From positions 682,001 to 746,000 of the forward strand of contig NZ_JBBHKA010000001.1 in NCBI RefSeq assembly GCF_037572775.1: 64,000 bases of DNA, written 5' to 3'. Position 1 is the stretch's first letter. Every line of letters begins with the position of its first letter. Positions 23,369 to 51,273 of this stretch are shown piece by piece. The notes beneath the pieces are model-generated. The model made no database searches, was not told where the DNA came from, and saw only the letters and a list, made by a program, of their open reading frames with translations. The stretch comes from Ramlibacter sp. PS4R-6. Its GTDB lineage: Bacteria > Pseudomonadota > Gammaproteobacteria > Burkholderiales > Burkholderiaceae_C. The translations under genes and the position numbers were made by a program.

Positions 23369-23370
23369 CC

Positions 23371-24102
23371 ATGGGATTCGGTCGATTGAAACGCGCCGCG
23401 GAGATCGCCGAGCTCCGCGCCCGCGAGTTACTGACGGGGAAGAAGGGCTCCCGGTTCGGAATCAAGGCGTCTTATCTCCATCGCGAGCGTGCAGTTTACT
23501 TCGAGGATGACGACGAATCGGTCGTGTACCAGCCGGACGTCTACATGCTTGCCGCGCACCTGGGCCGCTTGGCAGGGGCTCGTTATCTTGTCGATATCGG
23601 TTGCGGCGCCGGGCGCAAGTTGATCGAGACTGCCGAGGCTACGGGGATGGTGCCCATCGGCATCGATTGCGGCTCGAACCTTGAACGATCCCGTGCGGCG
23701 CGGCCGCATTGGCAATGGCTGGAGGTCGACCTCGAGCAGCCGGCCGGGTCCCTTCTTCCCGAAGAGGTCCTGCGGCAAGCGGTCCTGGTGTGTGCCGACG
23801 TGATCGAGCATCTCAACGATCCGACGGGCTTGGTCGGCTTACTGCGTGAATGGATGCGGGCGGCGCGCGTCGGCGTATTGACGACGCCCGAGCGCGATCT
23901 GGAATACGGCATTGGGCACCGGGGGCCGCCCCCCAACCTGCGCCATGTACGAGAGTGGAACGCGGCTGAATTGGCCAGCTACCTGCGGCTCGAGGGACTG
24001 AACGTGCCCTTCATCGGGTTGACGCGATCGAATGACCAATCCCCGCAGATGAAAACGACACTGGCCATCCTGGGACCTACGTCACCCTCGTATGACACAT
24101 GA
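23371..24102 (+). CDS. class I SAM-dependent methyltransferase
   Basis: A 243-residue protein with a Rossmann SAM-binding motif (YLVDIGCGAGRKLIE), a following acidic loop (GIDCGSNLE) and the motif VLVCADVIEHLNDPTGLV. It starts 2 bp after the GT2 gene and overlaps the next GT4 gene by 11 bp. It probably methylates a sugar of the glycan, though a lipid or small-molecule acceptor cannot be excluded. Confidence 0.82.
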   Translation: MGFGRLKRAAEIAELRARELLTGKKGSRFGIKASYLHRERAVYFEDDDESVVYQPDVYMLAAHLGRLAGARYLVDIGCGAGRKLIETAEATGMVPIGIDCGSNLERSRAARPHWQWLEVDLEQPAGSLLPEEVLRQAVLVCADVIEHLNDPTGLVGLLREWMRAARVGVLTTPERDLEYGIGHRGPPPNLRHVREWNAAELASYLRLEGLNVPFIGLTRSNDQSPQMKTTLAILGPTSPSYDT

Positions 24103-25171
24103 CGTGCTGCATGTCCTGGGGACGGCGCGTCCGGAGGGCGCGTCGATCGCGCGCATCGTTGGCTCGCTCGGAGAGTTGATCGACAAGCGTCGATTCCGGC
24201 TGCATGCGTGGTTCCTGGGGGAAGACGGCCCCTTGCGAGGCGAGCTGGAGGCCCGCGGCGTGGCAACGCGTTGTCTGGGGTGGAGTGGGGGCATCCGCGA
24301 CGTGGGTGGCGTGGTGGACTTCGTGCGCGCGCTGCGGGGGCGACGATTCGCGATCGTTCACCAACACCAGGGCGGACGAAGTGTTCGGCTTGCAGCCCGC
24401 CTTGCCGGCGATTCAAAGCTCGTATCGCATGTGCATGGGGTCGTCGACGAATCGCATCCATGGCAGCGCTCGTCGACCTCCGTGCCTTCTTGCGACCGGG
24501 TGATAGCCTGCTCCCGGTTTGTGGCTTCGCAGATCGTAGGCGCCCACGCCGTCGTCATTCACTCGGGTGTGGAGCCGCTGGCTGCGCCAGTGCCCTGCCG
24601 GAAGGAGGGCCAAGTCCTCGTGGGCGCGGCAAGCCGCATGGTGCCGAGCAAGGGCCTGGGTGTCCTCATTGACGCCGCAGGGCTGATTCTTGCAGCCGGA
24701 ATCAATGCGCGAATCGAGATCGCCGGTGACGGACCTGAGCGCGATTCACTCGAGCGCGAAGTTCGACGAAGGAATCTGACCAACGTGCGTTTTCTTGGTT
24801 GGCGAAACACCTTCGCACTCCTGCCGGGGTGGGACATCTTTGTACAGCCCTCGATTCACGAGCCGTTCGGCCTTGCGAACATCGAAGCAATGAATCACGG
24901 ACTTCCGGTCGTTGCATCGGCGACGGGCGGGATTCCTGAAATCGTGCAAAACGGCTCGACAGGATTACTTGTCGAGCCCGGCGACGCGGCTGCGCTCGCC
25001 AAGGCGATTCTTCGACTCGTCCGGGATCCGCTGTTGCGCCATCAGATGGGCGTGGCGGGCAAGCTCCGAGTTGCGGAACATTTTTCATCGGGTGCGATGG
25101 CGCGGGCGGTGTCAGGACTGTATGAAGACCTGCTGGCGCTGCCAGAGTATGTTAATGCTCGCATGAACTGA
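24092..25171 (+). CDS. family 4 glycosyltransferase
   Basis: A 359-residue GT-B retaining glycosyltransferase. The N-terminal acceptor domain begins DVLHVLGTARPEGAS and the C-terminal donor domain carries GAASRMVPSKGLGVLIDA, IAGDGPERDSLE and the EX7E motif EPFGLANIE, followed by ATGGIPEIV. It is the last gene of the first plus-strand group and faces the minus-strand GT2 gene across 59 bp with no evident terminator. Confidence 0.9.
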   Translation: MTHDVLHVLGTARPEGASIARIVGSLGELIDKRRFRLHAWFLGEDGPLRGELEARGVATRCLGWSGGIRDVGGVVDFVRALRGRRFAIVHQHQGGRSVRLAARLAGDSKLVSHVHGVVDESHPWQRSSTSVPSCDRVIACSRFVASQIVGAHAVVIHSGVEPLAAPVPCRKEGQVLVGAASRMVPSKGLGVLIDAAGLILAAGINARIEIAGDGPERDSLEREVRRRNLTNVRFLGWRNTFALLPGWDIFVQPSIHEPFGLANIEAMNHGLPVVASATGGIPEIVQNGSTGLLVEPGDAAALAKAILRLVRDPLLRHQMGVAGKLRVAEHFSSGAMARAVSGLYEDLLALPEYVNARMN

Positions 25172-25230
25172 GAGCGGCACTTCGCGCTCGCCGCGACGGC
25201 AAGTTCAATCGAGCAAGAGTACGGCGAAGT

Positions 25231-26154
25231 TCAGCGATCGCGCTCGCCGCTGGCCGCGCGTGCAGGCTGAGCAACGAGCGCGCTGCGTCGCGGCGGCGGC
25301 TCCGGCGGAACGGGGCCGGCGGCGAGGAACAGGGCGAAATGCCCGAGACCCGCGGCAAACGCGATGGCACGGCGCCACGCGGGCACGATCCGCACGCTCA
25401 CCTCTTCGCCCTGACCCCTCCAGGACCGCCGCACGCCGCAGCAGGCTTCCCAGAGGTATCTCGCGATCGCGCCGCGAAAGCGCGGCTGCTGCATCCACAG
25501 GAATGCCAGGTACGCGGTGGACGCGGAAACGCTGCGGATGTGCCTCGCCTTGAGCGTGCCGAACATCGCAGGGAACGGATGCGACACGATCGCGGCCGGG
25601 GAGTAGATGGCCCTCCACCCGCGTTCGATGAGCTCGAAGAAGGCGTAGTGCTCCTCCGCCCCGGGAATCCTCGTGCCCGCGCCGAGGCACTCGCAGAAAC
25701 CCGGCCAGTCTTCGAACACCGATCGGCGCACCGCAAGATTGGCGCCGTTGCCGATCCCGCCGAAGCAGGCGCGCTCGAACCACTGGGGAGAAGTTGAATC
25801 CACCACCCGGCGGTGCGGGCCGCAATCGTTGCTGCCCAGCGCGACGCAGAGCTTTTCCTCGGGCGTGCTTGCTTCGAAGTCCTTGATCCGGCCGGCCACG
25901 ACGGCCACGTCCAGGTCGTCGAATTCCGGCGCGAGCATGCGCAGCCAGTCCGGCCGCGCCACGGCCTCGTCATCGATCAATGCGACGAGTTCCGTCGCAC
26001 TCGCGCGCACGCCCCGGTTCCGCGCGCGACTGACCCCCGGAACGGGCTCATGCAGGTAGGACGCGCCGAAGCGCCTCGCCAAGCCCTCGGCCGGGTAGTG
26101 GCGCGGGCAGCTGTCGACCACCAAGATGTGGAAATCGGGATAGTCCAGCTCCAC
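25231..26154 (-). CDS. family 2 glycosyltransferase, N-terminus uncertain (no canonical start before strand beta-1)
   Basis: From the GTG at 26154 this is 307 residues, but the reading frame stays open upstream to 26241 and there encodes ISPFTVVICTRDRPAELERC, the normal first strand of a GT2 fold. No ATG, GTG or TTG precedes that strand; a TGA closes the frame at 26244. An ATC at 26226, or one base fewer in the six-C run at 26232-26237 (restoring a TTG start), would explain it. Catalytic segments ARNRGVRASATELVALIDDEA and the EEHYAFFELIERG motif are intact, and a hydrophobic C-terminal segment is present. Either an unusual start, a recent 5' lesion or a sequence error. Confidence 0.75.
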   Translation of the reverse strand: MELDYPDFHILVVDSCPRHYPAEGLARRFGASYLHEPVPGVSRARNRGVRASATELVALIDDEAVARPDWLRMLAPEFDDLDVAVVAGRIKDFEASTPEEKLCVALGSNDCGPHRRVVDSTSPQWFERACFGGIGNGANLAVRRSVFEDWPGFCECLGAGTRIPGAEEHYAFFELIERGWRAIYSPAAIVSHPFPAMFGTLKARHIRSVSASTAYLAFLWMQQPRFRGAIARYLWEACCGVRRSWRGQGEEVSVRIVPAWRRAIAFAAGLGHFALFLAAGPVPPEPPPRRSALVAQPARAASGERDR

Positions 26155-26335
26155 GACGGAAGCCAGGCAGCGTTCGAGCTCGGCCGGCCGGTCCCGCGTG
26201 CAGATGACAACTGTGAACGGACTGATTTGCGCCCCCCGACTTCAAGTCAGTTTAAGCCACCGCTGCCGGGGAGCGCGAGTGCGAAGTCGGTCACGCTTTC
26301 CCCCATTTCCAGCAGCTCGCGATTGAGCAGTCAGC

Positions 26336-26349
26336 CTTATTGTAATAAG
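26336..26349. promoter_or_regulatory. palindrome abutting the start codon of the initiating transferase
   Basis: CTTATT-GT-AATAAG is a perfect 14-bp inverted repeat in an AT-rich patch, ending one base before the ATG at 26350. No Shine-Dalgarno is visible between them. It lies in the divergent region between the minus-strand GT2 and the long plus-strand operon, so it may be an operator or promoter-region element controlling the operon. The regulator is not identified. Confidence 0.35.
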
Positions 26350-27423
26350 ATGTTTCAAGACATTCAAATTGTTATGGACTCAAGCTGGATCGCCCTCCTG
26401 GGCTGCACCCTCGGCTCCTTTGCACTGGCCTTCACCCTGGCGCGCTCGCCCGCCCTGGGAGCGGATTTGCCGGGCACGGGGGTGCAGCAGTGCCACGTCC
26501 GCCCGACCTCGCGTTTGGGCGGACTGGGAATCTTCCTGGCGCTGGGCGTCGCGTGCATTGCGATCGCCAACCGCGAACAGCAGGCGATCCTCGCCACGAT
26601 CCTGGTGGCCGGCGCGCCGGCGCTGGCCATCGGGTTGGTTGAAGACCTGACGCGCCGCGTGGGCGTCGCGGCTCGCCTGGCCAGCACCATTGCCGCCGGC
26701 GCGATCGCGGTGCTGTGGAGCGACACCCAATTGAGCAGTGTGCATGTCGCGCCCCTGGATGCGCTCCTGTCGCACGCCGCCATCGCCGCGCTCTTCACCG
26801 CGTTCGCGGTCGCCGGGATCGCGAATGCCATGAACATCATCGACGGTTGCCACGGCCTGGCCGGGGGAACGGCGACCATCTGCCTGCTTGGCCTGGCAAC
26901 GATTGCAGCGCAGGCCGGTGATTTCCCGCTCGCGTTCGCCGCCGTCGCCATGGCCGCCGCAGTCGGCGGGTTCCTGATCGTCAACTTCCCGTTCGGCCGC
27001 GTGTTCCTTGGCGACGGAGGCGCGTATTTCACGGGGTTCGCCATCGGCTGGATTGCGGTGCTGCTTCCCTCGAGAAATCCTTCCGTTTCGCCCTGGGCCA
27101 GCCTGCTGATTTGCGCGTACCCGGTCATCGAGGTGCTTTACAGCGTCGCGCGCCGCGCCGCACGTCGGGTGCCTGCCGTGGCCGCAGACCGGGACCACCT
27201 CCACAGCATCGTTGCGCGCCGCATCGCGCCCGCCTGGTTGCCGGGGGCGCGGCCTGACCTGCACAACGCCGCGACCTCGGTGGCCATGTGGGTCCTCGCC
27301 GGCGTGCCGGCCGTCACGGCGGTGATCGCATGGCGCCACACGGGCTGGTTGATGATGGGGACGGCAACGGCCTTCATGCTCTACCATTGCCTCTATCAGC
27401 GAGTGGTCCGTCATGAGCAGTAA
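26350..27423 (+). CDS. polyprenyl-phosphate sugar-1-phosphate transferase (WecA/MraY family), likely initiating enzyme
   Basis: A 357-residue polytopic protein of glycosyltransferase family 4 (MraY/WecA/WbpL), which transfers HexNAc-1-phosphate to undecaprenyl phosphate and starts repeat-unit assembly. Seen: [12 protein letters not shown], the acidic [21 protein letters not shown], the catalytic loop [18 protein letters not shown] and the cytoplasmic His-rich loop [12 protein letters not shown], with about ten TM segments. It heads the 26.35-48.97 kb operon and overlaps the GDP-fucose-synthase gene by 11 bp. An in-frame ATG at 26374 is an alternative start. UDP-GlcNAc or a related sugar is the likely donor. 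Confidence 0.9.
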
Positions 27424-28390
27424 CGATCCCAAGACATTCGTCGCCGGCCACCGTGGCCTGGTGGGCTCGGCGCTCGTGCGCGCGCTGCGGGCGCGGGGTA
27501 ACGAGAACCTGGTGCTTCGCGCGCACCGCGAGCTCGACCTCACGGACCAGAAGGCCGTGATGGACTTCTTCGCGGCCGAACGTCCCCAGCACGTCTACCT
27601 GGCCGCCGCACGCGTGGGGGGCATCCTGGCGAACAACCGCTACCCGGCCGAGTTCATCTACAGCAACCTCATGGTGCAGGCGAACGTCATCCACGCGGCC
27701 CATGTGCATGGCGTGGAACGCCTGCTGTTCCTGGGCTCGAGCTGCATCTACCCGAAGCACGCCGAGCAACCGATGGCCGAAGAGGCGCTGCTGACCGGGC
27801 CGCTCGAGCCGACGAACGAACCCTATGCGGTGGCGAAGATCGCGGGCATCAAGCTGTGCGAAAGCTACAACCGCCAGTACGGGTGCGACTTCCGCAGCGT
27901 GATGCCGACCAACCTGTACGGGCCGGGCGACAACTACCACCCGGAGAACAGCCATGTGGTGCCGGCACTGATCCGGCGATTCGACGCGGCAAGGAGCCAG
28001 GACGCAGATACGGTGACGATCTGGGGCACGGGTCGCGCGATGCGGGAATTCCTGTTCGTGGACGACATGGCCGAAGCGTGCCTCCATGTCATGGCGCTGG
28101 ACAAGGCCGAGTACGAAGCGTGCACGGAGCCCATGCAAAGCCACATCAACGTCGGGTTCGGCAGCGACGTGACGATCGAGGAACTTGCCCGCAAGATCGC
28201 GACCGTCGTCGGCTACACGGGGCGCATCGTCTTCGACTCGGCGAAGCCGGACGGATCGCCGCGCAAGCTCCTCGACTCGTCGCGCATCCGGGCCATGGGA
28301 TGGCGGCCGCGCACCTCGCTCGACGAAGGCCTCGCGCAGGCGTACGCGGATTTCGCGAATCGCACCCTGGCCACCGAGCCGTGCCTGTAG
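27413..28390 (+). CDS. fcl: GDP-L-fucose synthase
   Basis: A 325-residue extended SDR: GDP-4-keto-6-deoxy-D-mannose to GDP-L-fucose by epimerisation and NADPH reduction. Landmarks are [57 protein letters not shown] with the catalytic Ser/Cys region, the YAVAKIAG YxxxK pair and [18 protein letters not shown]. Its usual partner GDP-mannose 4,6-dehydratase (gmd) is not in the window and must be elsewhere if L-fucose is made. Confidence 0.95.
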
Positions 28391-28420
28391 GAACGCGCCG
28401 CGACCGCTGCGCGGATTGAA

Positions 28421-29407
28421 ATGCGCCACTACCACCCCAGCCTTCGCGTGCTCGTCACCGGCGGCGCCGGATTCCTCGGCAGCCACCTGTGCGAGCGTCT
28501 CCTCGAACAGGGCCACGACGTGCTCTGCGTCGACAATTTCTTCACCGGCACGCGCAGGAACGTCGAGCCCCTGCTGGATCACCCGCGCTTCGAGCTGATG
28601 CGGCACGACGTGACTTTCCCGCTGTTCGTGGAGGTCGACCGCATCTTCAACCTGGCGTGCCCGGCGTCGCCCGTGCATTACCAGCACGACCCGGTGCAGA
28701 CCACCAAGACCAGCGTGCACGGCGCGATCAACATGCTCGGGCTGGCCAAGCGTCTGCGAGCCCGGATCTTCCAGGCCTCCACGAGCGAGGTCTACGGCAA
28801 CCCGTCGGTGCACCCGCAGCCGGAAGACTATTGGGGCAACGTGAACCCGATCGGCCCCCGCAGCTGCTACGACGAAGGCAAGCGCTGCGCCGAAACGCTG
28901 TTCTTCGATTACCACCGCCAGCACGGCCTGGACATCAAGGTCGCGCGAATCTTCAACACCTACGGTCCACGCATGCACCCCAATGACGGGCGCGTCGTGA
29001 GCAACTTCATCGTGCAGGCGCTGCAGGGGCAGGACATCACCCTCCACGGCGACGGCTCGCAGACGCGCTCGTTCTGCCACGTGTCGGACCTGCTCGAGGG
29101 CGCGTTGCGTCTGATGGAAAGCGGTCCCGACCTGCCCGGCCCGGTGAACCTGGGCAACCCCGAGGAATTCACGATTCGCCAGCTCGCCGACCTCGTGGTC
29201 CAGATGACGGGCTCGCGATCACGCATCCGCACGCTGGCGCTGCCGACCGACGACCCCCTGCAGCGGCGCCCCGACATCTCCCTGGCGCGGAAACGGCTCG
29301 ACTGGGAGCCTCGGGTGGCGCTGCGCGAAGGCCTCGTGGAGACCATCGCCTACTTCGACCGGCTGCTCGCCTCTGGTGGCGCGCGGCCGTCAGCGCCCTT
29401 ACCCTGA
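28421..29407 (+). CDS. uxs: UDP-glucuronate decarboxylase (UDP-xylose synthase)
   Basis: A 328-residue SDR that converts UDP-glucuronic acid to UDP-xylose. The sequence is strongly UXS-like: [31 protein letters not shown], the [18 protein letters not shown] segment, STSEVYGNP, catalytic YDEGKR (YxxxK), [22 protein letters not shown] and [10 protein letters not shown]. It follows fcl after 30 bp. It implies that xylose, or a derived pentose, is part of the polysaccharide. No UDP-glucose dehydrogenase is present here. Confidence 0.93.
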
Positions 29408-29452
29408 AGTCATTCCGGGAGGGTGCGGCCCGCCGCCCCTCCCATTGCCAAC

Positions 29453-32374
29453 ATGTGCGGCATCGCCGGTATCTACGCCTTCCGAGCCTCGGCGCCCAGC
29501 GTCGAACGCGAGGAGCTGCGCGCCGTGCGCGACCACATGGCGCGCCGGGGACCCGACGGCAGCGGTGAGTGGTTCTCGGCCGACGGGCGCGTCGGGCTCG
29601 GACATCGAAGGCTGGCGATCATCGACCTCAGCGAGCGCGGCGCGCAGCCGATGGCGAGCGCCGACGGCAGCGTGGTGGTCAGCTTCAATGGCGAGATCTA
29701 CAACCACCGCGAACTGCGCCGCGAGCTGGAAAGCCGCGGCCGCGCCTTCCGGTCGGACTCGGACACGGAAGTGCTGCTGCACCTGTACGAGCTCGAAGGC
29801 GAGGCCATGCTCACGCGCCTGCGCGGCATGTTCGCCCTCGCGCTGTGGGACGGGCGCAAGCGCTCGATGCTGCTGGCACGGGATGCCTTCGGCATCAAGC
29901 CGCTCTACTACTCCAGCGATGGCGGGACCTTGCGCTTCGCCTCCCTGGTCAAGGCGCTGTTGCGCCCCGGCACGCCGATCGACACCGCGCCAGACCCGGC
30001 GGGCCATGTCGGCTTCTTCCTGTGGGGAAGTGTGCCGTCGCCTTGGACGCTGTACCGGGGCATCCGCGCCGTGCCCGCGGGGCACGCGCTATGGATCGGG
30101 CCGGAACAGGCCGGCCCGCCGCACCCCTTTTGCGAGGTGACCAGCATCCTCGCCGAGGCGGCCGCGAACCCCGCGCGGGGCACGCGCGATGACGCCCTGG
30201 CGGCGATCTCGGCGGCCGTGCGGGACAGCATCGCGGCGCATCACGTCTCCGACGTTCCCGTGGCAGTGTTCCTCTCTGCGGGCCTCGACTCCGCGCTCAT
30301 CGCCGCCTTGTCGGCCAACCTGGGCAGGCCGCCGCGAACCATGACGCTCGGGTTCGCGGAGTACGCGGGCACGGCGCACGACGAAGTCCCCGCCGCGGAA
30401 GCGCTCGCGCGCTCCCTGGGCACGGATCACGCGACGGTCGCGGTGCGCAAGGAAGACTTCCACGCCGAGGAGGCCCGCTTGATGGAAGCGATGGACCAGC
30501 CGTCCATCGACGGCATCAACGCCTGGTTCGTGGCCCGCGCCGCGCGGTCGGTCGGGGTGAAGGTCGCGCTGTCCGGCCTCGGGGGCGACGAGCTCTTCGC
30601 GTCCTACCCGAGCTTTCGGCAGGTCCCGCGCCTGCGAAGCTTCACCCGCCCCTTCGCCGTGGTGCCGGCCCTGGGAAAGGCGCTGCGCCGCGCAGCATCC
30701 CCGTTGCTCAAGCGCCTGACTTCCCCGAAACATGCGAGCCTCCTCGAGTACGGCCCGACACTGGGGGGGGCGTACCTGCTGCGCCGCGGCTTGCACATGC
30801 CTTGGGAGATCGAAAGCCTGCTGGAACCCGCGTTCGTGCGCGAGGGCCTGCAGAGCCTGGAGTGGGAACGGAACCTGCAGCACACGACGCGCGGCATCGC
30901 GAGCGACAGGCTCGCCGTCTCGGCCCTGGAGATGTCCTGGTACACGCGCCATCAGCTGCTCGCCGACACCGACTGGGCCAGCATGGCCCACTCGCTCGAG
31001 GTGCGGGTCCCCTTCCTCGACGTCCCGCTGCTGCGGGCAGCCGCGCCGTGGCTGGCCGCGCATCCCGGCATCACGAAGCCCGAGGTCGCTCGCGCGATCG
31101 CACCGTCCCTGGGGCAGCCCGTGCTGGAGCGGCACAAGAGCGGGTTCTCCGTGCCGGTGCGGGAGTGGGTCGCAGGCTCGGAGTCGGTCCCGGCGCGACG
31201 CGGGCTGCGCGGCTGGGCCGAGTACGTCCACCGCGCCAGCGCGCCGCGGCATGTCGAGCGTGTGCGGCGCAGCGCCGAAGGCTCGCTCGCCCTCTGGTCG
31301 CCCACCATGGCGACACCCGGCGGCGTGCAAAGCTACATGTGGCGGCTTTGGGAAGTCCTCATGGGCGTTTGCGGAAGCGCCTCGGCGCCGCGGGGAGTGT
31401 GCCTGCAGGACGAGCCCGAGCAGTTGGCACGTTGGGACAACCCGTCCCCGGCGCGGCCGGCCGGCGCGGCGGGCCACAAGTGGCGCTTCGTGCGCTACGC
31501 CCTGGGCCGTCAGGGTCGCGCCCGGGTGGTGATCGTCGGGCACGTGAACCAGGCACCTGTCGCGTGGATCGCCTGGCGGCTGTCGCTCATCCGGCAGTAC
31601 ATCGTCATCCTGCACGGCATCGAGGCCTGGCGCCGCTTGACGCCGCTTCGCCGACTGGCCGTGCGCGACGCCCACGCGGTGGTCGCCACGACAAGTTACA
31701 GCGCCGTGGCCTGCGCCCGCGCAAATGCCCTGTCCGGCCACAACTTCCGCATCGTCCCGCTGTGCGCGGAACCGGTCCCCGCCGCGCCCGACCCGAGATT
31801 CGCCCTGGATGGGGCTTTCCGGATCCTGTTCGTGGCGCGCCTGTCGCGCGTGGAAAGGTACAAGGGCCTCGAAACCCTGACGGCGGCGGTGAGCCTACTC
31901 GTGCGCGAGCGCGGCATTCCCGCCAAGCTGCATGTCGTGGGCGACGGTGACGACATGGCCCGGCTCCAGGAAGTGGCGCGGGACCACGGGCTCACTTCCG
32001 ACTCCGTGCACTTCCACGGCCGGCTGTCCGATGCGCAGCTACAGGCCGCGTATGCATCGGCCCACGTGTTCTCCATGCCCAGCGAAAAGGAAGGCTTCGG
32101 CATCGTTTTCCTGGAAGCGATGCGGCGTGGCGTGGCGTGCATCGGCGGCGCGCACGGCGGCACGCCCGAGGTCTTCGAGGACGGCCGCGAGGGAATGCTG
32201 GTGCCCCATGGCGACTGCGAGCTGCTCGCGCAGAGGCTGGAAGCGCTCGCCACGGACGATGCCCTGCGCGAGCGCCTGGCCCGTGCTGGACAGGCCCGGT
32301 TCGAGCGCAGCTACACGTTCCCGATCTTCCAGCAGCGTTGGGCCGAACTCCTGGAACGCCATGCCCAGGCCTGA
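29453..32374 (+). CDS. in-frame fusion: asparagine synthetase-type amidotransferase + GT4 glycosyltransferase
   Basis: One 973-residue frame with two complete enzymes. Residues 1 to about 595 are glutamine-hydrolysing asparagine synthetase: the MCGIAGIY start (Cys2 nucleophile), RRGPDGSG, GHRRLAIIDLS, FNGEIYN, the PPi loop FLSAGLDSA and SGLGGDELFASY. Residues about 605-973 are a GT4 glycosyltransferase: SPTMATPGGVQSYMWRLWE, LFVARLSRVERYKGLET, VVGDGDDMARL and the EX7E-like EKEGFGIVFLEAM. No stop or start signal separates them. The ATG at 29453 is chosen because Cys must be residue 2. In such loci AsnB-like enzymes probably amidate uronic acids. It overlaps the ABC gene by 14 bp. Natural fusion or lost stop codon are both possible. 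Confidence 0.88.
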   Translation: MCGIAGIYAFRASAPSVEREELRAVRDHMARRGPDGSGEWFSADGRVGLGHRRLAIIDLSERGAQPMASADGSVVVSFNGEIYNHRELRRELESRGRAFRSDSDTEVLLHLYELEGEAMLTRLRGMFALALWDGRKRSMLLARDAFGIKPLYYSSDGGTLRFASLVKALLRPGTPIDTAPDPAGHVGFFLWGSVPSPWTLYRGIRAVPAGHALWIGPEQAGPPHPFCEVTSILAEAAANPARGTRDDALAAISAAVRDSIAAHHVSDVPVAVFLSAGLDSALIAALSANLGRPPRTMTLGFAEYAGTAHDEVPAAEALARSLGTDHATVAVRKEDFHAEEARLMEAMDQPSIDGINAWFVARAARSVGVKVALSGLGGDELFASYPSFRQVPRLRSFTRPFAVVPALGKALRRAASPLLKRLTSPKHASLLEYGPTLGGAYLLRRGLHMPWEIESLLEPAFVREGLQSLEWERNLQHTTRGIASDRLAVSALEMSWYTRHQLLADTDWASMAHSLEVRVPFLDVPLLRAAAPWLAAHPGITKPEVARAIAPSLGQPVLERHKSGFSVPVREWVAGSESVPARRGLRGWAEYVHRASAPRHVERVRRSAEGSLALWSPTMATPGGVQSYMWRLWEVLMGVCGSASAPRGVCLQDEPEQLARWDNPSPARPAGAAGHKWRFVRYALGRQGRARVVIVGHVNQAPVAWIAWRLSLIRQYIVILHGIEAWRRLTPLRRLAVRDAHAVVATTSYSAVACARANALSGHNFRIVPLCAEPVPAAPDPRFALDGAFRILFVARLSRVERYKGLETLTAAVSLLVRERGIPAKLHVVGDGDDMARLQEVARDHGLTSDSVHFHGRLSDAQLQAAYASAHVFSMPSEKEGFGIVFLEAMRRGVACIGGAHGGTPEVFEDGREGMLVPHGDCELLAQRLEALATDDALRERLARAGQARFERSYTFPIFQQRWAELLERHAQA

Positions 32375-34136
32375 TCCCCGCGGTCCCGCACTGCCGGCCC
32401 TGATGCTGGCGCTCTGGCGCCGGCTGGCCACGGGGCGCAAGTACGAACTCTTCGCCGTCGGCGCGCTCACCGTCGCCAGCGCCTGTGCCGACGTCGCCAC
32501 CATCGGTGCCGTCATCCCGTTTCTCGCCGTGCTCATGGATGCCCGCCAGGCCCTCGACGTGCCCCTGGTCTCGGCATTCGCCCAGCGCCTGGGGGTCGCC
32601 TCATCGGGTGGGCTCGCCCTCCTGCTCACCCTCGTCTTCTGCGCCGGCTGCCTGGTCGCCGCGGTGCTGCGAATCCTGCTGGTCTGGCTGCAGAATCGCG
32701 CCGGGCTCACCACGGGCTCGGAGATCAGCGTGGCGGTGTATCGACGGACATTGGCGCTGCCCTACAGCGTGCATGTGGAAAGAACGAGCAGCGAGGCGAT
32801 CAGCACCGCCCTGCACAAGGTGGAAGGCGCGGTCCTGGGCGTGCTGATGCCGCTGCTGCAGCTCGCAAGTTCCGCTGCGCTCGTGTTGCTGGTCCTCGCC
32901 GCAGTCGCTGCAGTCGACCTGCGCGTGGCCCTCGTCGCCACCGTGACGCTCGGCGGCGCGTACGCCCTGATCTCGTGGCGCACCCGCAACCACCTCGCGC
33001 GTATGGGCCGCCGGATGGTCGACGAGCAAGGCAAGGCGATCGGCGCGCTGCAGGAGGGGCTGGGCGGAATCCGCGACGTCATCCTCGACGGCACCCAGCA
33101 GCACTACTGCGACCTCTTCTCCCGCGCCGACCGCGCCGTGCGCCAGGCCCAGGCGACCAGCAACTTCATCGCGCAGAGCCCGCGATTCGTCATCGAGGCA
33201 TGCGGCATCGTGGCCATCGCGGTCCTGGCGTATGCATGGAGCACCGAAGCAGGCGCCACGGGCGCCGTCCCGTTTCTCGGCGCACTCGCCCTGGGCGCGC
33301 AAAGGCTGCTGCCGGCCCTGCAGCAGGCCTACAACGCATGGGCCTCCATCATCGGCAATCGCGCTTCCCTGGCCGATGTCGTGGAGATCCTGGAGCGGGC
33401 CTCGCCCGACGACGCCCCCGCGCAAAGGGAGATTCCCTACCGGCGCTCGCTGCGGCTGGAAGGAGTGCGCTTCCGTCATCGGGACGCGGGCGCGTGGATT
33501 CTCGACGGCGTCGACCTGGAGGTGCCGCGCGGCGCGCGAGTGGGCATCGTCGGCAGCTCCGGGAGCGGCAAGACCACGCTCGTGGACATCATGATGGGCC
33601 TGCTGGAGCCGACGCAGGGCGTCGTGCGGGTGGACGACGAAGCGCTCACGCCTGAAACACTGGCTTCCTGGCGGCGCCGGGTCGCGCATGTCCCGCAGTC
33701 CATCTTCCTGGCCGACTCGACCCTTGCGCAGAACATTGCCTTCGGCGTCGCGCCCGGGGCCGTGGACATGCAGCGCGTGCGCGAAGCCGCGCGCCGCGCG
33801 AGGCTGTCCGACTTCGTGGAGCGCTGCCCGCGCGGATACGAGGAATCCGTCGGCGAGCGGGGCATCCGCCTTTCGGGCGGGCAGCAGCAGCGCGTCGCGA
33901 TCGCCCGCGCGCTCTACAAGCGGCCCGACATCCTGTTCTTCGACGAGGCCACCAGCGCGCTCGATGCCCAGACCGAAAGGTCCGTGCTGGAGGCCATCGA
34001 CGCCCTCGGCCGCGACCTCACCGTCGTGATCGTCGCGCACCGGCTGTCGGTCCTGCGCGGTTGCGACTTCATCGTCAGGGTCGAGGACGGTAAGGCCGCG
34101 GCGCTCGCGGGTGCGGCGGCGGGCGCAGATGCCTGA
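32361..34136 (+). CDS. ABC exporter (permease-ATPase half transporter, PglK/MsbA-like)
   Basis: A 591-residue half-transporter. The N-terminal membrane domain has about six TM helices (residues 30-300), and the C-terminal ATPase has Walker A GSSGSGKTT, Q-loop VPQSIFLAD, signature LSGGQQQRVAIARAL, Walker B ILFFDEATSALD and the H-loop VAHRLS. Relatives flip lipid-linked oligosaccharides (PglK) or lipids and export glycans. Its place among glycosyltransferases suggests lipid-linked glycan translocation. A separate Wzx flippase is encoded at 41679-43196. Confidence 0.92.
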   Translation: MPRPDPRGPALPALMLALWRRLATGRKYELFAVGALTVASACADVATIGAVIPFLAVLMDARQALDVPLVSAFAQRLGVASSGGLALLLTLVFCAGCLVAAVLRILLVWLQNRAGLTTGSEISVAVYRRTLALPYSVHVERTSSEAISTALHKVEGAVLGVLMPLLQLASSAALVLLVLAAVAAVDLRVALVATVTLGGAYALISWRTRNHLARMGRRMVDEQGKAIGALQEGLGGIRDVILDGTQQHYCDLFSRADRAVRQAQATSNFIAQSPRFVIEACGIVAIAVLAYAWSTEAGATGAVPFLGALALGAQRLLPALQQAYNAWASIIGNRASLADVVEILERASPDDAPAQREIPYRRSLRLEGVRFRHRDAGAWILDGVDLEVPRGARVGIVGSSGSGKTTLVDIMMGLLEPTQGVVRVDDEALTPETLASWRRRVAHVPQSIFLADSTLAQNIAFGVAPGAVDMQRVREAARRARLSDFVERCPRGYEESVGERGIRLSGGQQQRVAIARALYKRPDILFFDEATSALDAQTERSVLEAIDALGRDLTVVIVAHRLSVLRGCDFIVRVEDGKAAALAGAAAGADA

Positions 34137-35349
34137 GGCAGCCGTGGCGCAGGTTCGCTGGCGGGTGGCGTTCGTCAACACGCACCCCATCCAGTACTTC
34201 GCGCCCCTGTACGCGCACCTGCAGTCGCATGCCGGGCTGGACGTGACCGCCCTGTACCTGTCGGACTTTTCGTTGCGCGGCGGTCACGACAAGGGCTTCG
34301 GCCGGGCGGTGGCGTGGGACATCGACCTGCTGGCGGGCTATAAGCCGGAGTTCATGGGCCAGCGCGCATCGCGCCGCCAGCTGGGCGGCTACTTCTCCAT
34401 GGTTGCTCCCGAGCTCTGGGGCGCGATCCGCCGCGGCAACTTCGACGCGGTCGTCATCCATGGCCACAATTTCGCCGCGCACCAAGTCGCGCTGGCCGCC
34501 TGCCTGGCCAGCGCTACCCCCGTCCTGCACCGCAGCGAGACGCACCTGGGACTGCGCCGGCCGCGATGGAAGGAAGCCATCCGCCGGCCCCTGCTTTCCC
34601 GCTGGTACCGGGCCTTCGACGGTTTCCTCGCGATCGGTTCGGCCAACGCCCGCTACTACCGAAGCATGGGCATCCCCGCCGAGCGCATCCACCGCGTGCC
34701 GTATGCGGTGGACAACGAGCGCTTCATGGCGGCGGCGCGGCAGTCGGGCGAGTCGCGCGCGCGGGTGCGCGAGCGGCTCGGGTTGCAAGGCAGCGCGCCT
34801 GCGATCCTCTCGGCCGCCAAGTTCGAGCCGCGAAAGCGGCCCGACGAACTGCTGGAAGCATTCCGGCGGCTGCAGCAGGAAGGGGTCGAAGCGCAACTCG
34901 TGCTCGCCGGTTCCGGCCAGATGGAGCCGCAACTCAAGGCCATGGTCGCGCGGCACGGCATTCGCAATGTGAGCTTTCCCGGCTTCATCAACCAGGCCGA
35001 ATTACCGCAGGTGTACGCCGCCTGCGACGTTTTCGTGCTGCCCTCGGATAACGAGCCATGGGGGCTGGCCGTGAACGAGGCGATGTGCGCGGGCCTGCCT
35101 GTCATCGTGTCCGGGGAGATCGGCTGCGCGGAAGACCTCGTGGCGGGCGGAGGAAACGGCGCGACCTTTCCCGCTGGCGACATCGCTGCGCTTGCCGGCG
35201 CCCTGCGGCCGCTGCTGGTCGACGAGGGCGCGCGCCGGCAAGCGAGCCGGGCCAGTGCGCTGCGCATCGGGGCGTGGGGCTATGCCCAGTGTGCCGAGGG
35301 CCTGCGCGAGGCCATCGGCGCGGCCCGCGCGCACCGCGGGTTCGCCTGA
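34129..35349 (+). CDS. family 4 glycosyltransferase
   Basis: A 406-residue GT-B enzyme. The N-terminal domain begins RVAFVNTHPIQYFAPLY, and the donor domain contains ILSAAKFEPRKRPDELLEAF, LVLAGSGQMEPQL and the EX7E motif EPWGLAVNEAM followed by GLPVIVSGEIGCAED. The ATG at 34129 overlaps the ABC gene by 8 bp. It most likely adds one sugar to the lipid-linked repeat unit. Confidence 0.92.
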   Translation: MPEAAVAQVRWRVAFVNTHPIQYFAPLYAHLQSHAGLDVTALYLSDFSLRGGHDKGFGRAVAWDIDLLAGYKPEFMGQRASRRQLGGYFSMVAPELWGAIRRGNFDAVVIHGHNFAAHQVALAACLASATPVLHRSETHLGLRRPRWKEAIRRPLLSRWYRAFDGFLAIGSANARYYRSMGIPAERIHRVPYAVDNERFMAAARQSGESRARVRERLGLQGSAPAILSAAKFEPRKRPDELLEAFRRLQQEGVEAQLVLAGSGQMEPQLKAMVARHGIRNVSFPGFINQAELPQVYAACDVFVLPSDNEPWGLAVNEAMCAGLPVIVSGEIGCAEDLVAGGGNGATFPAGDIAALAGALRPLLVDEGARRQASRASALRIGAWGYAQCAEGLREAIGAARAHRGFA

Positions 35350-35361
35350 GGTCCACCGGCC

Positions 35362-36336
35362 ATGGCCATTCCCGAGTCCGACATCTCCGTCCTGATCCCG
35401 ACCTACCGCTACCGCGACAAGGTGGGGCGTGCCGTTGCGTCGGCGCTCGACAGCGGCGCCGGCGAGATCCTGGTCGTGGACGACCGCAGCGACGACGGTA
35501 CACGCGAACTCGTTGCAGCAATCCGCGATTCGCGCCTGTCGTTCATTGAGAACGAAACCAACCTCGGGCTCTGGGAGAACCACCTGCGGGCACTCGGTGC
35601 CGCCACCCGCCCCTGGATCAAGTTCATCCAGGCGGACGACTACCTGCTGCCGGGAGGCCTGGCGAAATACGCGGCTGTCGCGGCCGCGGACGTCTCCGTG
35701 GTCACCGCGGCACCCGTGATGCGCGACGACGCGACCGGGGAAACCTGGCTCACGTACGCGCTCGCACAACCCGCGCGCCTGGACTGGGCGGCATTCGAGC
35801 GCATGTGCCTGTGCTTCGGCAACTTTCTTGGCTCGCCCTCGTACATGATGCTGCGTGCCGACGCGATCGACCGCGACCCGGCCCTGTGGCGCACCCAGAT
35901 GTCAGCCGACATGGTGGCGGGCGCTATTGCCGCCAGCCAAGGCGCGGTCGTGGTCCTTCCCCCCGGCGCCGTTGGCCACGGCGTGCATGCCCGCCAGGAC
36001 GCAAAGACGCAAAGGAGCGTGCAGGGTCTCCAGCGAATGGCCAATTCGCTCGCGTACCTGCGAGCCCGGCCCGAACCCGGGCTACGCCGGCTCGCGAACC
36101 TTTGGACCCTGGCGAACCTGCGGGCCATGGCCAGGACGTTCGTGCGGGGAGTGGTCCGCGACGTCGACTCCCGGGCCGAACTCGTGCGATGCTTGTCGCG
36201 GCTGCTTGTCGATCCATCACTGACGGACTGGCGCGAAATGCTTGCGGCCCGCACCGCCCTCTCGAACGCGTTGCAGGCGCGCAGCCGGGCCGGTCAACCG
36301 TTCGACCTGCAGCGACTCCTTGCCCATGCCCCTTGA
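35362..36336 (+). CDS. family 2 glycosyltransferase
   Basis: A 324-residue GT-A enzyme with ISVLIPTYRYRDKVGRAVASAL, LVVDDRSDDGTRELV, the metal motif FIQADDYLLPGGL and a C-terminal helical region with no clear TM segment. It begins 12 bp after the preceding GT4 gene. Donor and linkage are not predictable. Confidence 0.9.
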   Translation: MAIPESDISVLIPTYRYRDKVGRAVASALDSGAGEILVVDDRSDDGTRELVAAIRDSRLSFIENETNLGLWENHLRALGAATRPWIKFIQADDYLLPGGLAKYAAVAAADVSVVTAAPVMRDDATGETWLTYALAQPARLDWAAFERMCLCFGNFLGSPSYMMLRADAIDRDPALWRTQMSADMVAGAIAASQGAVVVLPPGAVGHGVHARQDAKTQRSVQGLQRMANSLAYLRARPEPGLRRLANLWTLANLRAMARTFVRGVVRDVDSRAELVRCLSRLLVDPSLTDWREMLAARTALSNALQARSRAGQPFDLQRLLAHAP

Positions 36337-36348
36337 CGGATCCGATCG

Positions 36349-37284
36349 ATGAACATTGACCGCGTTGACGGCCTCGCCTGCCCGGTCCACCACGGGACGC
36401 TGCGGCATGCCGGGGGAATCCTGCAATGCGCCGAGTGCGGCCCCGTCGGCCGCATGGAAGGAGCGGTGTTCTCGTTCCTGCCGCAAGCCGATGCTTTCTA
36501 CGAAGGCCGGTACAGCAACCGGACGCGCTTCCTGCCGCGCAATGACGGCCTCGTGGCCACGTTCCCGCTGCGGGTCGTGCTGCAGGGCTATCCCACCACC
36601 GTCGCCGCCGAAGTTCCCGAAGGGTCCACCGTCGTCGAGATCGGCTGCGCCGGCGGGCTTGCCTGGTTCGCCCGGCGCTACCGCATGGCGGGCATCGACC
36701 TGTCGCTGGGTTCCCTGCGCCTCGCGGCGGACTATCGCTATGCGGTCCAAGGCGACGCGCGCCGGCTGCCTTTTCCGGACGGCAGCGTGGACGGCGTGGT
36801 CAGCTCGTGCTTCTTCGAGCACCTGGACGACGAGGGGAAGCTGCAGGTGCTGCGCGAGTGCGCCCGCGTACTTCGGCCAGGTGGCAAGGTGGTCTTCTTC
36901 TACGACGTCTGGACCGACAACCCGGTGATCGCGTTCTTCCGCCGCCGCGACCCGGCGCGATACCGGCGTGAATTCCTCGAGGGCGACGGCCATGTCGGCT
37001 ATGCCAGCCTCGCTCACAACGCCGTGCTGTTCGAAAGAAGCGGGCTCGCCGTTCTTCGCCATGCGTATCACGAGCGCACCCCACTCCTGTCCAATTCCTG
37101 CTGGCAGAAGCTGGCGACCTGGCCCGGCCTCGCCGGCCGGCTCGCGCGCCTGATGGATCGGCTGACCGGGGGCGTTCTTCGCCTTCCGGCCCTGGTGCTG
37201 GTCTTCCTCCTGGACACGACCGTCGGCCGCCTGTTGCCTGCCGATTGGGCCCGTTGCGTGACCACAGTCGCCCGCAAGCCATGA
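36349..37284 (+). CDS. SAM-dependent methyltransferase with N-terminal Cys/His cluster
   Basis: A 311-residue protein. An N-terminal zinc-ribbon-like segment (CPVHHGTLRHAGGILQCAEC) precedes the class I SAM domain (STVVEIGCAGGLAWFARRY, VQGDARRLPFPDGSVDGVVSSCFFEHLDD, CARVLRPGGKVVFFYD). The C-terminus has a hydrophobic stretch (LPALVLVFLLDTTVGRLL) that may bind membrane. Overlaps the next gene as ATGA. Probable role: sugar O- or N-methylation on the glycan. Confidence 0.85.
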   Translation: MNIDRVDGLACPVHHGTLRHAGGILQCAECGPVGRMEGAVFSFLPQADAFYEGRYSNRTRFLPRNDGLVATFPLRVVLQGYPTTVAAEVPEGSTVVEIGCAGGLAWFARRYRMAGIDLSLGSLRLAADYRYAVQGDARRLPFPDGSVDGVVSSCFFEHLDDEGKLQVLRECARVLRPGGKVVFFYDVWTDNPVIAFFRRRDPARYRREFLEGDGHVGYASLAHNAVLFERSGLAVLRHAYHERTPLLSNSCWQKLATWPGLAGRLARLMDRLTGGVLRLPALVLVFLLDTTVGRLLPADWARCVTTVARKP

Positions 37285-38351
37285 AGATCGCGGTGGTGGG
37301 TCGCTTCTACGAAGAGGGTTTCGCGACTTTTGTGGCGCAGGCCCTGGCGGACATGAAGCACGAACCCGTGCGGTTCGACCCCGCGGCACCCCTGGTGCCG
37401 TTCGGCTCTCGGGCGGCGTTCTACATCAACCGCCTGCTGTCGAAGGGCCACGAGACCGTGATGGCTGCCGCGCGGACGCTGGGCCTTTCCGCGGACGGCA
37501 GGGCACTGGTGCGCGCCGTCGAAGCCGCAGGCGGCGTGGACCTCATCATCGCGTGTCACGACTTCCTCACGCCGGCCGACGCCCAGCAGGTCAAGCAGGC
37601 CGCCAGGGCCCCCCTCGCCCTGTGGTACCCGGACCCGATCTGGAGCTTCCAGCGGCACATGTTCCTGAACGCGCCATACGACTTCCTGTTTTTCAAGGAC
37701 CCTTACCTGGTCGACATCCTGCGGCGCAAGATCGGGGCAAACGCGTTCTACCTGCCCGAGTGCTTCAGCCCTCGCTCCCTATGCAGCGAGGACGCGCCGG
37801 AAGCGCAGTACCAGGCCGATATCTGCACCGCTGGAAACCTCTACGCGTACCGTGTTGCGCTGTTCCGCCACCTGGAAGGGCGCGACGTGAAAATCTGGGG
37901 TTTGCCCGCCCCCCTCTGGATGGACACACGCGGCATCGAGCCCATGATTCAGAACCGCTTCGTCGCGCATTCGGAAAAGGCCAAGGCTTTCCGAAGTGCG
38001 AAGATCGTGCTGAACAACCTGAACCCGGCGGAAATCTGGGGGACCAACGTGCGCACGTTCGAGATTTGCGGGGCCGGCGCGTTCCAGCTGGTGGACTGGC
38101 GGCCGGGCCTGCCGCAGCTGTTCGAGCCGGGCAAGGAGCTGGTCGCCTTCGACGGGCTGGAGGACATGAAAGCCAAGATCGACCATTACCTCGGAGCGCC
38201 GCAGGAGCGCGACGCCATCGCCGCAGCCGGGCAGGCGCGGGCGCTGCGCGAGCACACCTATGAACATCGGTTGCGCCTGCTGCTGGACACGGTGGCCGGT
38301 GCCCGCGCGGGCTTCGACATGCCCCGCGCCGGCGGGGGGCCTGCGTGGTGA
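37281..38351 (+). CDS. CgeB-like glycosyltransferase (first of two)
   Basis: A 356-residue protein of the CgeB/glycosyltransferase group 1-like family: MKIAVVGRFYEEGFATFVAQAL start, LALWYPDPIWSF, FFKDPYLVDILRRKIG, YLPECFSPR, ICTAGNLYAYRVALFRHL and the C-terminal RTFEICGAGAFQLVDWRPGLPQLFEPGKELVAF donor-binding region. Family members are predicted GT-B glycosyltransferases. A second, divergent member is at 40624-41682. Coupled to both neighbours by 4-bp overlaps. Confidence 0.85.
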   Translation: MKIAVVGRFYEEGFATFVAQALADMKHEPVRFDPAAPLVPFGSRAAFYINRLLSKGHETVMAAARTLGLSADGRALVRAVEAAGGVDLIIACHDFLTPADAQQVKQAARAPLALWYPDPIWSFQRHMFLNAPYDFLFFKDPYLVDILRRKIGANAFYLPECFSPRSLCSEDAPEAQYQADICTAGNLYAYRVALFRHLEGRDVKIWGLPAPLWMDTRGIEPMIQNRFVAHSEKAKAFRSAKIVLNNLNPAEIWGTNVRTFEICGAGAFQLVDWRPGLPQLFEPGKELVAFDGLEDMKAKIDHYLGAPQERDAIAAAGQARALREHTYEHRLRLLLDTVAGARAGFDMPRAGGGPAW

Positions 38352-39922
38352 TCGACGACCAGGTGGCAGCGGCGGCGGCGCACCGGCACGCCTTGGGGCG
38401 GCTGCGCGCGCGCGTGAATTTCGGGCTTGGCCTCCTCTTGCTGGGCGCCGGGGCCATCAATGCCGGGGCGCATGTGCTCACGAAGGAGGCCGAGCGCGGA
38501 TCCATGCACTTGGCCGCTGCCGCGTTCTGCGTTTACCTGTTCCTCGAATGCCGGCGCCACACTCTGCGCACGGATGCTTTCGGCCTCCTGGCGCCGCCGC
38601 TGCTGGCGTCGGTGCTGTTCGCGTTCCTGTCCTTCGTCTTTCCGGTGACGGCGTCGCTGCATGACCCTTATATCGCCTTCCGTTTCGACGGCGTCATCTT
38701 CGGGACGGCCGACGAGATCAGCGAGGTGCTGGGCATGCTGGCGCTCGCCTGTTTCTGCCTCTGGCGCGGCTACGGCCTGGGTAGCGGGTTCGCGCGGCGC
38801 TTGGGAGCGCGCATCCAGCGCGCCGCCCTGCTGCGGCAGGAGTGGGCTCCGCGCATGCCCGCGCTCCTCGTGCTGCAGGCGATCTTCATCGGGCTGGCCA
38901 TCGCCAGCATCAACCTCGGCGTCTTCGGCATGGCGAGTTCTCCCGAAGCGCGGGAGCGAAACGTCCTTTTCCTCGACATCATCAATGTCGGCATGACGGG
39001 TGGCACGGTATCGCTACTGCTCTTGCTCATCGTGTATTTCCGCCGGGCGGATGCCGGACGCAAGCACCTGGGACTGGGCATCCTCTGCGCACTGCTCATC
39101 ATGATCCACCTGGCCTTCGGCCTGCTTTCTGGGTTCAAGTTCCAGTTGGTCACGCCCTTCATCACCATCGTCATCGCCCAATACCTGGCGAGCCGGAAGG
39201 TGAGCACCACTTTCGTGGCGATGGGCATCGCCGCCCTCGTCCTGGCGTATTCCGTCGTGGAGCCCTACCGGGCCTACCTGACATTCGCGGGCCTGCGGGG
39301 TGAGTCGGAGCTGCACACCCTGGCACGTGCCGTCGGCTCGTCGATCAGCGAACGCACGAGCCTCGCGCGGGACGATCACCCGCTGAGCACCCAGATCGCA
39401 ACCCGTTTCGACTTGACTTTGATGACCGCGGTCGGGCTGCAGGCCGCGCAGGAGAAGATCGTCGACGAGCGCCTGATCGGCGAAATGGCGGAGAGCATCT
39501 ACCTGTCCCCGATCCTGGCATTCGTGCCCCGACTCTTCTGGCAGGACAAGGGCAGTTACGCCACGGGAGCCTGGTTCTACCAGATCGCGATGGGGGGATC
39601 GAGCCTCGACAACACCTCGGTGGGGATGGGGCCCATCGCCTATCTGTATTTCATCGGTGGTGTGCTGGGAATCGTGCTGGGCTTCGTGGCCATCGGCGTC
39701 CTGCAGGCCATCGTGTTCGAAGGCATCGCGCGGGTGGGCGCCGGTGGCGTCCTGATCTACCTGAGCACCATCGCCACGCTGGTCCTGCTGCCCAGCGACA
39801 TCGGGCCGGCCCTGACCGGCATGCTGCGAATGCTGGTCATTGCCTTCGTGGCGCAACTCATCCTGTTGCGGCCGAACAGGCAGGGGGCGGGCGCCTGGAG
39901 CCGGTTCGTGCGAAAGGCGTGA
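38348..39922 (+). CDS. Wzy-like polysaccharide polymerase, polytopic membrane protein
   Basis: A 524-residue protein with about 11-13 hydrophobic helices and a large hydrophilic loop near residues 310-400 (LRGESELHTLARAVGSS onward). This topology and the locus context fit an O-unit/oligosaccharide repeat polymerase. Segments such as FVPRLFWQDKGSYATGAWFY and DNTSVGMGPIAYLYFIGG resemble loops seen in oligosaccharide repeat-unit polymerases. Wzy proteins are too divergent for confident naming. The start is the GTG at 38348 (GTGA overlap); GTG 38345 is equivalent. Confidence 0.75.
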   Translation: MIDDQVAAAAAHRHALGRLRARVNFGLGLLLLGAGAINAGAHVLTKEAERGSMHLAAAAFCVYLFLECRRHTLRTDAFGLLAPPLLASVLFAFLSFVFPVTASLHDPYIAFRFDGVIFGTADEISEVLGMLALACFCLWRGYGLGSGFARRLGARIQRAALLRQEWAPRMPALLVLQAIFIGLAIASINLGVFGMASSPEARERNVLFLDIINVGMTGGTVSLLLLLIVYFRRADAGRKHLGLGILCALLIMIHLAFGLLSGFKFQLVTPFITIVIAQYLASRKVSTTFVAMGIAALVLAYSVVEPYRAYLTFAGLRGESELHTLARAVGSSISERTSLARDDHPLSTQIATRFDLTLMTAVGLQAAQEKIVDERLIGEMAESIYLSPILAFVPRLFWQDKGSYATGAWFYQIAMGGSSLDNTSVGMGPIAYLYFIGGVLGIVLGFVAIGVLQAIVFEGIARVGAGGVLIYLSTIATLVLLPSDIGPALTGMLRMLVIAFVAQLILLRPNRQGAGAWSRFVRKA

Positions 39923-39926
39923 CGGC

Positions 39927-48973: not shown

Positions 48974-48985
48974 GTGCGCGACAGG

Positions 48986-50447: not shown

Positions 50448-50461
50448 TGTCACACTTGACA
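50448..50461. promoter_or_regulatory. short inverted repeat before GT2 gene
   Basis: TGTCA-CACT-TGACA is a perfect 5-bp inverted repeat with a 4-bp spacer directly after the DUF218 stop and 4 bp before the GT2 ATG at 50466. The surrounding 60 bp are unusually AT-rich for this chromosome. It could be a protein-binding site or a small mRNA hairpin. No Shine-Dalgarno is visible before this ATG. Confidence 0.3.
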
Positions 50462-50465
50462 CATC

Positions 50466-51251: not shown

Positions 51252-51273
51252 GCATCACCGATTGAGGCATGTC

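Follow-up and report, generated by a model that had tools for sequence, protein, structure and literature searches.

An AsnB-type amidotransferase fused in frame to a GT4 glycosyltransferase in a polysaccharide cluster of Ramlibacter sp. PS4R-6

The window analysed here, a stretch of 64,000 nucleotides of Ramlibacter sp. PS4R-6 (contig NZ_JBBHKA010000001.1, positions 682,001 to 746,000), holds a gene in which a glutamine-dependent amidotransferase of the asparagine synthetase (AsnB) type is fused in frame to a glycosyltransferase (GT) of family GT4. The fusion is real, and fusions of this sort are uncommon, join known kinds of enzyme and have evolved repeatedly. On balance, the protein is probably a bifunctional enzyme of polysaccharide assembly, which would amidate a uronic sugar and transfer a sugar, and which would have arisen from coupled genes.

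The AsnB-like genes of polysaccharide clusters are commonly named asparagine synthase, whatever their substrate may be. A recurrent fusion to a GT would show which enzyme is the partner and, through it, which sugar is concerned, and the substrate would become testable in one protein. Moreover, separate genes that share an ATGA overlap stand beside fused ones, which makes a clear case set for how coupled genes become one.

The fused gene and its two halves

A single open frame runs from the ATG at 29453 to the stop at 32374 on the plus strand and encodes 973 amino acids, with no internal stop. Its parts are the following:

29453..32374, plus strand: fused AsnB-GT4 gene, 973 amino acids
29453..31222, plus strand: AsnB-type glutamine-dependent amidotransferase part, residues 1-590, with N-terminal nucleophile (Ntn) glutaminase and synthetase (Pfam, NCBIfam, motifs)
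31199-31219, plus strand: RGLRGWA tail of the AsnB part, common to most of its clade (tail comparison)
31223..31285, plus strand: linker (frame inspection, AlphaFold model)
31286..32371, plus strand: GT4 glycosyltransferase part, from about residue 612, with the EX7E motif at 32090-32116 (Pfam, Foldseek)

An alternative GTG start at 29423 would lengthen the protein by 10 residues; the ATG at 29453 is preferred because it gives a cysteine at position 2, the residue that this class of glutamine-dependent amidotransferase requires.

In the Pfam scan of the fused protein, GATase_7 matches residues 51-170 (E 1.1e-46; GATase_6 also matched), Asn_synthase residues 253-618 (E 7.6e-53) and Glycos_transf_1 residues 791-948 (E 9.7e-34; Glyco_trans_1_4 also matched). 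The AsnB half reaches 378.9 bits with NCBIfam TIGR01536 (cutoff 267.1), and with both domains over their curated cutoffs and an N-terminal cysteine it belongs to the asparagine synthase superfamily (PF00733 and PF13537; TIGR01536). Its motifs, from the N- to the C-terminal end, are MC (1-2), RGPDG, NGEIYN, SDTE, SAGLDS (275-280) and GGDELF (377-382), and it closes with RGLRGWA, before the GT4 half. The latter is assigned to GT4 by Glycos_transf_1, which is over its cutoff, and by the EX7E motif EGFGIVFLE at residues 880-888. The length of the frame is weak evidence by itself, given that the DNA has 68% GC and a 550-residue antisense open reading frame (ORF) overlaps the gene; the fusion is accepted because both halves show homology in one frame, and not because the ORF is long. 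The first-pass annotation had described an in-frame fusion of about 973 residues with intact catalytic motifs: its coordinates are right, the Pfam domains do lie in one frame, and Cys2, SAGLDS, GGDELF and EX7E were all located. The window's genome assembly (G000; 3.84 Mb, 5 contigs, 100% complete) has a single full-length copy of the gene, the other DNA match being of 45 bases only.

The AlphaFold model of the protein has a mean predicted local distance difference test score (pLDDT) of 86.8 and a predicted template modelling score (pTM) of 0.67, and as a prediction it confirms the folds of both halves. Foldseek relates the first half to TsnB9 and E. coli AsnB, and the second to PimB' and BshA. 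The pLDDT falls below 50 at residues 603-621 (the linker region), 642-678 and 686-688. The alignment supplied to the model had 30 rows, namely 6 fused proteins together with 16 AsnB and 8 GT4 proteins encoded separately. The N-terminal ends of the GT4-only rows were in part wrongly placed, and this may account for the poor modelling of residues 642-678. A structural case for channelling between the two active sites was considered and set aside: the domains are confident but the linker is ill defined, and at this pTM the model is neutral on the matter.

Integrity of the junction

The GC content at third codon positions over the junction codons (31223-31290) is 0.87, like that of the remainder of the gene. 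Past the junction, the two alternative frames run on to stops at 31530 and 31948. Since both are open across the junction, allowing for an ordinary one-base insertion or deletion error does not yield two normal genes; AsnB would instead be extended by some 80 or 220 residues, without a normal end. For the fusion to be undone as an assembly error, a base would have to be substituted, one particular insertion made or a larger piece be missing. The idea that two genes were joined in this way, judged here from the assembled sequence, finds some ground in the nearest AsnB relative, which has two genes. It is nevertheless extremely improbable, in view of how far the alternative frames stay open and of the seven further fusions present in other assemblies, several of which are metagenome-assembled genomes. 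Internal in-frame starts near the GT part are a GTG at 31262, in the linker, and then an ATG at 31307; no Shine-Dalgarno-like sequence was seen by eye before either of them.

Recurrence of the fusion among relatives

Relatives were drawn from overlapping samples of 61 genomes (the window's own and related ones), 399 of the order, 398 of the phylum, 60 of the genus, 399 of the family and 369 of the class. A scan of named genomes provided further ones (80 loci kept, among the matches listed); it used peptide patterns taken partly from the GT half, and may therefore favour relatives with a similar GT. Strict matches were defined at 1e-110, and in the family and class samples at 1e-120 with the AsnB half alone as query. 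They are uncommon: 8/399 in the order, 13/398 in the phylum, 6/60 in the genus, 4/399 in the family and 7/369 in the class, the window's genome being counted in each, and not every strict match falls in the clade described below.

The AsnB tree has 48 rows, of which 26, window included, form a starred group with support of 99/99. The RGLRxWA tail is found in most of this clade and is absent from locus L185. Two AsnB frames that are cut short, in L116 (482 residues) and L181 (543 residues), possibly belong to decaying genes and were excluded from the trees, as were repeat fetches of the same locus. Among the matches listed, 8 of the 26 clade members are fused, the window being one of them. According to Pfam, six are joined to a GT4 (the window, L156, L157, L159, L160 and L033) and two to a GT9 (L035 and L036). 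The first-pass annotation knew of no described example of this fusion; any sense that it is one of a kind is too strong, in view of these seven further proteins, two of them with GT9. No described AsnB-glycosyltransferase fusion was found in the open-licence papers searched: a gene-fusion passage in PMC7468200 is about a cloning construct, and the excerpts of PMC3899966 deal with other matters. Such architectures are very likely present in protein databases.

Outside the clade the fusion was found in 0/22 of the other tree rows and in 0/81 lower-scoring distinct rows (longest 681 residues), some of which are incomplete (L050 at a contig end, L052 with a broken frame). As a control on long frames, 31 loci (L008-L031 and L192-L198, some also among the 81) were measured from the N-terminal cysteine to the stop: 31 frames in 30 loci span 585 to 674 residues, save one that the locus boundary truncates. 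Thus, among the matches listed, none of the long-framed AsnB matches outside the clade has a C-terminal extension; their extra length lies upstream. Within the clade, 4 of the 14 members obtained from genome surveys around G000 are fused (window not counted), as are 3 of the 11 reached solely by the named-genome scan, among the matches listed.

When rows are labelled as fused or unfused, the starred branches force at least five changes (gains or losses), and shuffled labels give a mean of 7.6. The fused rows are therefore somewhat clustered, yet they do not share one origin without losses. A single ancestral fusion without losses is rejected on these grounds, and is also countered by sister Verrucomicrobia rows with different partners (GT4 in L033, GT9 in L035).

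Two unusual architectures were seen along the way. The fusion in L035 (8001-11294) carries, in addition to AsnB and GT9, a nucleotidyltransferase-like NTP_transf_2 domain at residues 1012-1072, which makes it a three-part protein. In L193 (1611-4700, minus strand), a 1030-residue AsnB frame has an endonuclease-like DUF559 domain at residues 262-368, between pieces of the glutaminase domain, and no GT fusion; this insert could be an intein or another insertion.

Separate pairs and the origin of the fusion

The nearest AsnB is that of L179 (genome G936), which is 66% identical and sister to the window with support of 99/97; its AsnB and GT4 are separate genes with an ATGA overlap. In 12 unfused clade members the next gene is a GT, and six of these pairs have the ATGA overlap (L034, L041, L179, L161, L162 and L180). 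Two others overlap differently, by one base in L118 (TGATG) and by 8 bases in L182; the remaining four pairs are those of L032, L037, L039 and L040. Altogether, a GT is fused or next in 20/26 clade rows. The other rows are followed by a TctC receptor (L154), a hexapeptide protein (L164), a methyltransferase (L042) or a GFO_IDH_MocA oxidoreductase (L047), except that L185 has no listed ORF after AsnB and L038 reaches the contig end.

The GT4 partners compared form two supported groups, and a third kind, found in L037, L039 and L040, is similar to the separate GT4 that the window has at 34165. The window's fused GT4 was considered as an ordinary member of a partner group, but this is unsupported, given that its branch is long and does not belong to the 99/98 group; it may be a replaced or a fast-evolving partner. 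Owing to this divergence, the window fusion is not simply the L179 pair made one, and unchanged inheritance of the partner is not claimed. Taking into account that the nearest relative is separate with an ATGA overlap, as are half of the separate pairs, the window fusion is probably recent and convergent, and built on translational coupling.

Gene neighbourhood

The fused gene belongs to a polysaccharide cluster, in which its neighbours are the following:

20317..54332, plus strand with two genes on the minus strand: polysaccharide cluster (Pfam and other profile matches)
27413..28390, plus strand: GDP-L-fucose synthase (Fcl; NCBIfam NF047922, 507.4 bits, cutoff 500)
28421..29407, plus strand: UDP-glucuronate decarboxylase-like gene (UXS), separated from the AsnB ATG by 45 bases (UDP-glucuronic acid decarboxylase 1, phmmer E 2.4e-124)
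32361..34136, plus strand: ABC transporter of the MsbA/PglK flippase type (Pfam ABC_tran; NCBIfam MsbA and PglK both under cutoff)

As placed, the ATG of the ABC transporter (32361) overlaps the end of the GT4 by 14 nucleotides; a later ATG at 32403 is possible. The cluster also encodes GT2, GT4 and other glycosyltransferases, a DegT aminotransferase, a WecA-like transferase, a Wzx-like protein, a carbamoyltransferase, an Alg14-like and GT28 C-terminal pair, and Wza- and Wzc-like proteins. The Alg14-like gene and its GT28 C-terminal (Alg13-like) partner, at 45416-46356, lie directly before the carbamoyltransferase. Two flippase types are present, the ABC flippase-like protein (32361-34136) and the Wzx-like one (41679-43196), as if two translocation routes or glycans were combined.

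Upstream neighbours were scanned in 28 loci, window included, some of them short upstream. UXS precedes AsnB on the same strand in 15/28 loci (window included), and in 8 of the 15 it is at most 150 nucleotides away. A same-strand UDP-sugar dehydrogenase lies upstream of unfused relatives in 4/28 loci (L158, L188, L189 and L047). L158, from the same genus and with an AsnB outside the 26-row clade, has the unfused order Fcl-UDP-glucose dehydrogenase (UGD)-UXS-AsnB-GT4-ABC, that is, the order of the window with an added UGD. Fcl, UGD and UXS are also upstream in L188 (the region of L179) and L189 (that of L180). In these three loci UGD sits between Fcl and UXS, which is not so in the window (27413-29407). 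In L047 the match is to a different UDP-sugar dehydrogenase, which ends 5 nucleotides before AsnB, and in L164 such a gene is on the opposite strand. A candidate source of UDP-uronate in the same locus is present in the clade relatives L188, L189 and L047, and in L158 outside the clade, and not in the window.

Asparagine or another product

In G000 the one strong Asn_synthase match is the fused gene; a second match (C1:604384) reaches 22.6 bits against a Pfam cutoff of 21 and spans 70 of 354 positions. In the assembly GatB scores above its cutoff and no asparaginyl-tRNA synthetase does, a combination that points to asparagine being formed on the tRNA, and consequently the fused protein need not make asparagine. 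In the alignment, PSID in the window protein stands where E. coli AsnB has TTIR, a stretch that belongs to the aspartate site. The clade and other AsnB rows outside it have DQPSIDG or something close to it, and some further rows read DEPF. It is very unlikely that the protein is an ordinary asparagine synthetase, fused by chance. Such a role would fit the TIGR01536 score above cutoff and the sole strong Asn_synthase match in the genome, but it has to be set against the location within a polysaccharide cluster, the tRNA-dependent pattern and the PSID stretch. Asparagine supply is accordingly an unlikely job for the fused protein. Five genus members (G012, G801, G024, G032 and G020) have a second AsnB of about 600 residues, with no counterpart in G000; in G418 the fused copy is the only high-scoring AsnB.

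Proposed function and alternatives

In the proposed mechanism, the AsnB half would hydrolyse glutamine at Cys2 and adenylate a carboxylate with ATP, and ammonia would then replace AMP. The substrate would most likely be a uronic acid, in the form of UDP-glucuronic acid (UDP-GlcA) or of an intermediate that bears a uronate, and the product a uronamide; the GT4 half would add a sugar to a growing lipid-linked oligosaccharide. The chemistry follows from the enzyme families. Uronic-acid amidation appears to be the best-precedented job for AsnB paralogues in polysaccharide clusters, judging from WbpS and WbqG in excerpts of PMC7468200 and PMC6025236; from these precedents, together with an excerpt of PMC3684757, we infer that a uronate is amidated in connection with sugar transfer. 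It is a guess, made reasonable by the recurrent fusions, that the amidated sugar is the one used by the GT4 half. As to its origin, two adjacent genes coupled in translation, in many cases through an ATGA overlap, would have lost the stop and changed frame, and the product would hold both enzymes together in equal amounts. A more specific proposal is tentative, and short of probable: the clade would repeatedly fuse its C-terminus to the following GT (GT4 of several kinds, GT9), this transferase would take the sugar solely once amidated, and the fusions would mark the amidated-sugar transferase of each cluster.

Several observations weigh against uronate amidation coupled to transfer. The window's cluster has no uronate-forming dehydrogenase, the sole PF00984 gene of G000 being at C1:1383897, about 0.67 Mb away, and the neighbouring UXS would consume UDP-GlcA, destroying its carboxylate. 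The window GT4 shares no more than 34% identity with any of the partner GT4s compared and lies outside their supported groups, joined to the first (99/98) at 83/70; given this divergence, the original partner may have been exchanged for another, which need not work on the sugar that is amidated. The fusion is dispensed with in close relatives, and the poorly defined linker and the pTM indicate no fixed alignment of the active sites. The uronic-acid amidation put forward in the first-pass annotation is therefore only partly upheld: the WbpS/WbqG precedents and the dehydrogenases upstream of relatives favour it, and the distant dehydrogenase of the window and its UXS do not. The channelling that the annotation also suggested is conjectural.

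The fusion may also be near-neutral, in the sense that coupled operon genes lost the stop between them and the activities are independent, with no channelling. This is compatible with the proposed chemistry and is a serious possibility, although it falls below even chances. It would agree with the ATGA overlap of 6/12 separate pairs, with partners that vary (two supported GT4 groups, the divergent window GT4 and GT9) and with unfused relatives of similar gene order (L158, L188, L189). It explains less well why fusions are concentrated in one AsnB clade (8/26 versus 0/22) and why the partner is a glycosyltransferase every time, a regularity for which frequent GT adjacency accounts in part. Rather less likely is an AsnB half that amidates something other than a nucleotide-uronate, such as a uronic residue already transferred and lipid-linked, or an acid that is not a sugar, with an unrelated donor for the GT4, e.g., UDP-xylose from UXS. 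UXS beside the group in 15/28 loci, as against a same-strand dehydrogenase in 4/28, would suit this explanation, as would DQPSIDG, where E. coli AsnB has another sequence in the alignment. On the other hand, dehydrogenases do adjoin relatives, and the substrates proposed in print for WbpS-type enzymes are UDP-uronates (PMC6025236) or, for the Wbp pathway, its uronic acid (PMC7468200).

Comparison with known systems

The closest functional parallels, likened by description and not by sequence, are WbpS and WbqG of O-antigen clusters, AsnB-type glutamine-dependent amidotransferases that also belong to surface-polysaccharide clusters. As reported in an excerpt of PMC7468200, deletion of wbpS in P. 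gingivalis leaves the uronic acid un-amidated, and WbqG is stated to have been shown to be required for uronamide formation. The wbpS mutant of H. pullorum makes a truncated glycan, and the next transferase was proposed to be unable to extend the un-amidated sugar; in the same excerpt (PMC6025236) the second residue is named HexNAcAN in the results and HexNAcA in the discussion. In Rubrivivax, wbpS-like genes are near glycosyltransferase genes, and one of them, located between such genes, affects colony form and aggregation (PMC3684757, in part). Unlike the window protein, WbpS and WbqG are treated in these excerpts as separate proteins, and the window's cluster differs from those systems in having no local uronate-forming dehydrogenase.

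With TIGR01536 and E. coli AsnB (1ct9), the AsnB half shares the fold and the catalytic motifs, and differs in DQPSIDG, which replaces the aligned stretch, in its polysaccharide cluster context and in the C-terminal GT4. The XrtA/PEP-CTERM amidotransferase family TIGR03108, of a type also tied to exopolysaccharide (PMC7468200, in part), gives 344.3 bits over residues 1-576, well under the family cutoff of 816.9, so that the window protein is not a member. Finally, the GT half has the fold and the EX7E motif of the GT4 enzymes PimB' and BshA, and is distinguished from them by being fused behind an amidotransferase.

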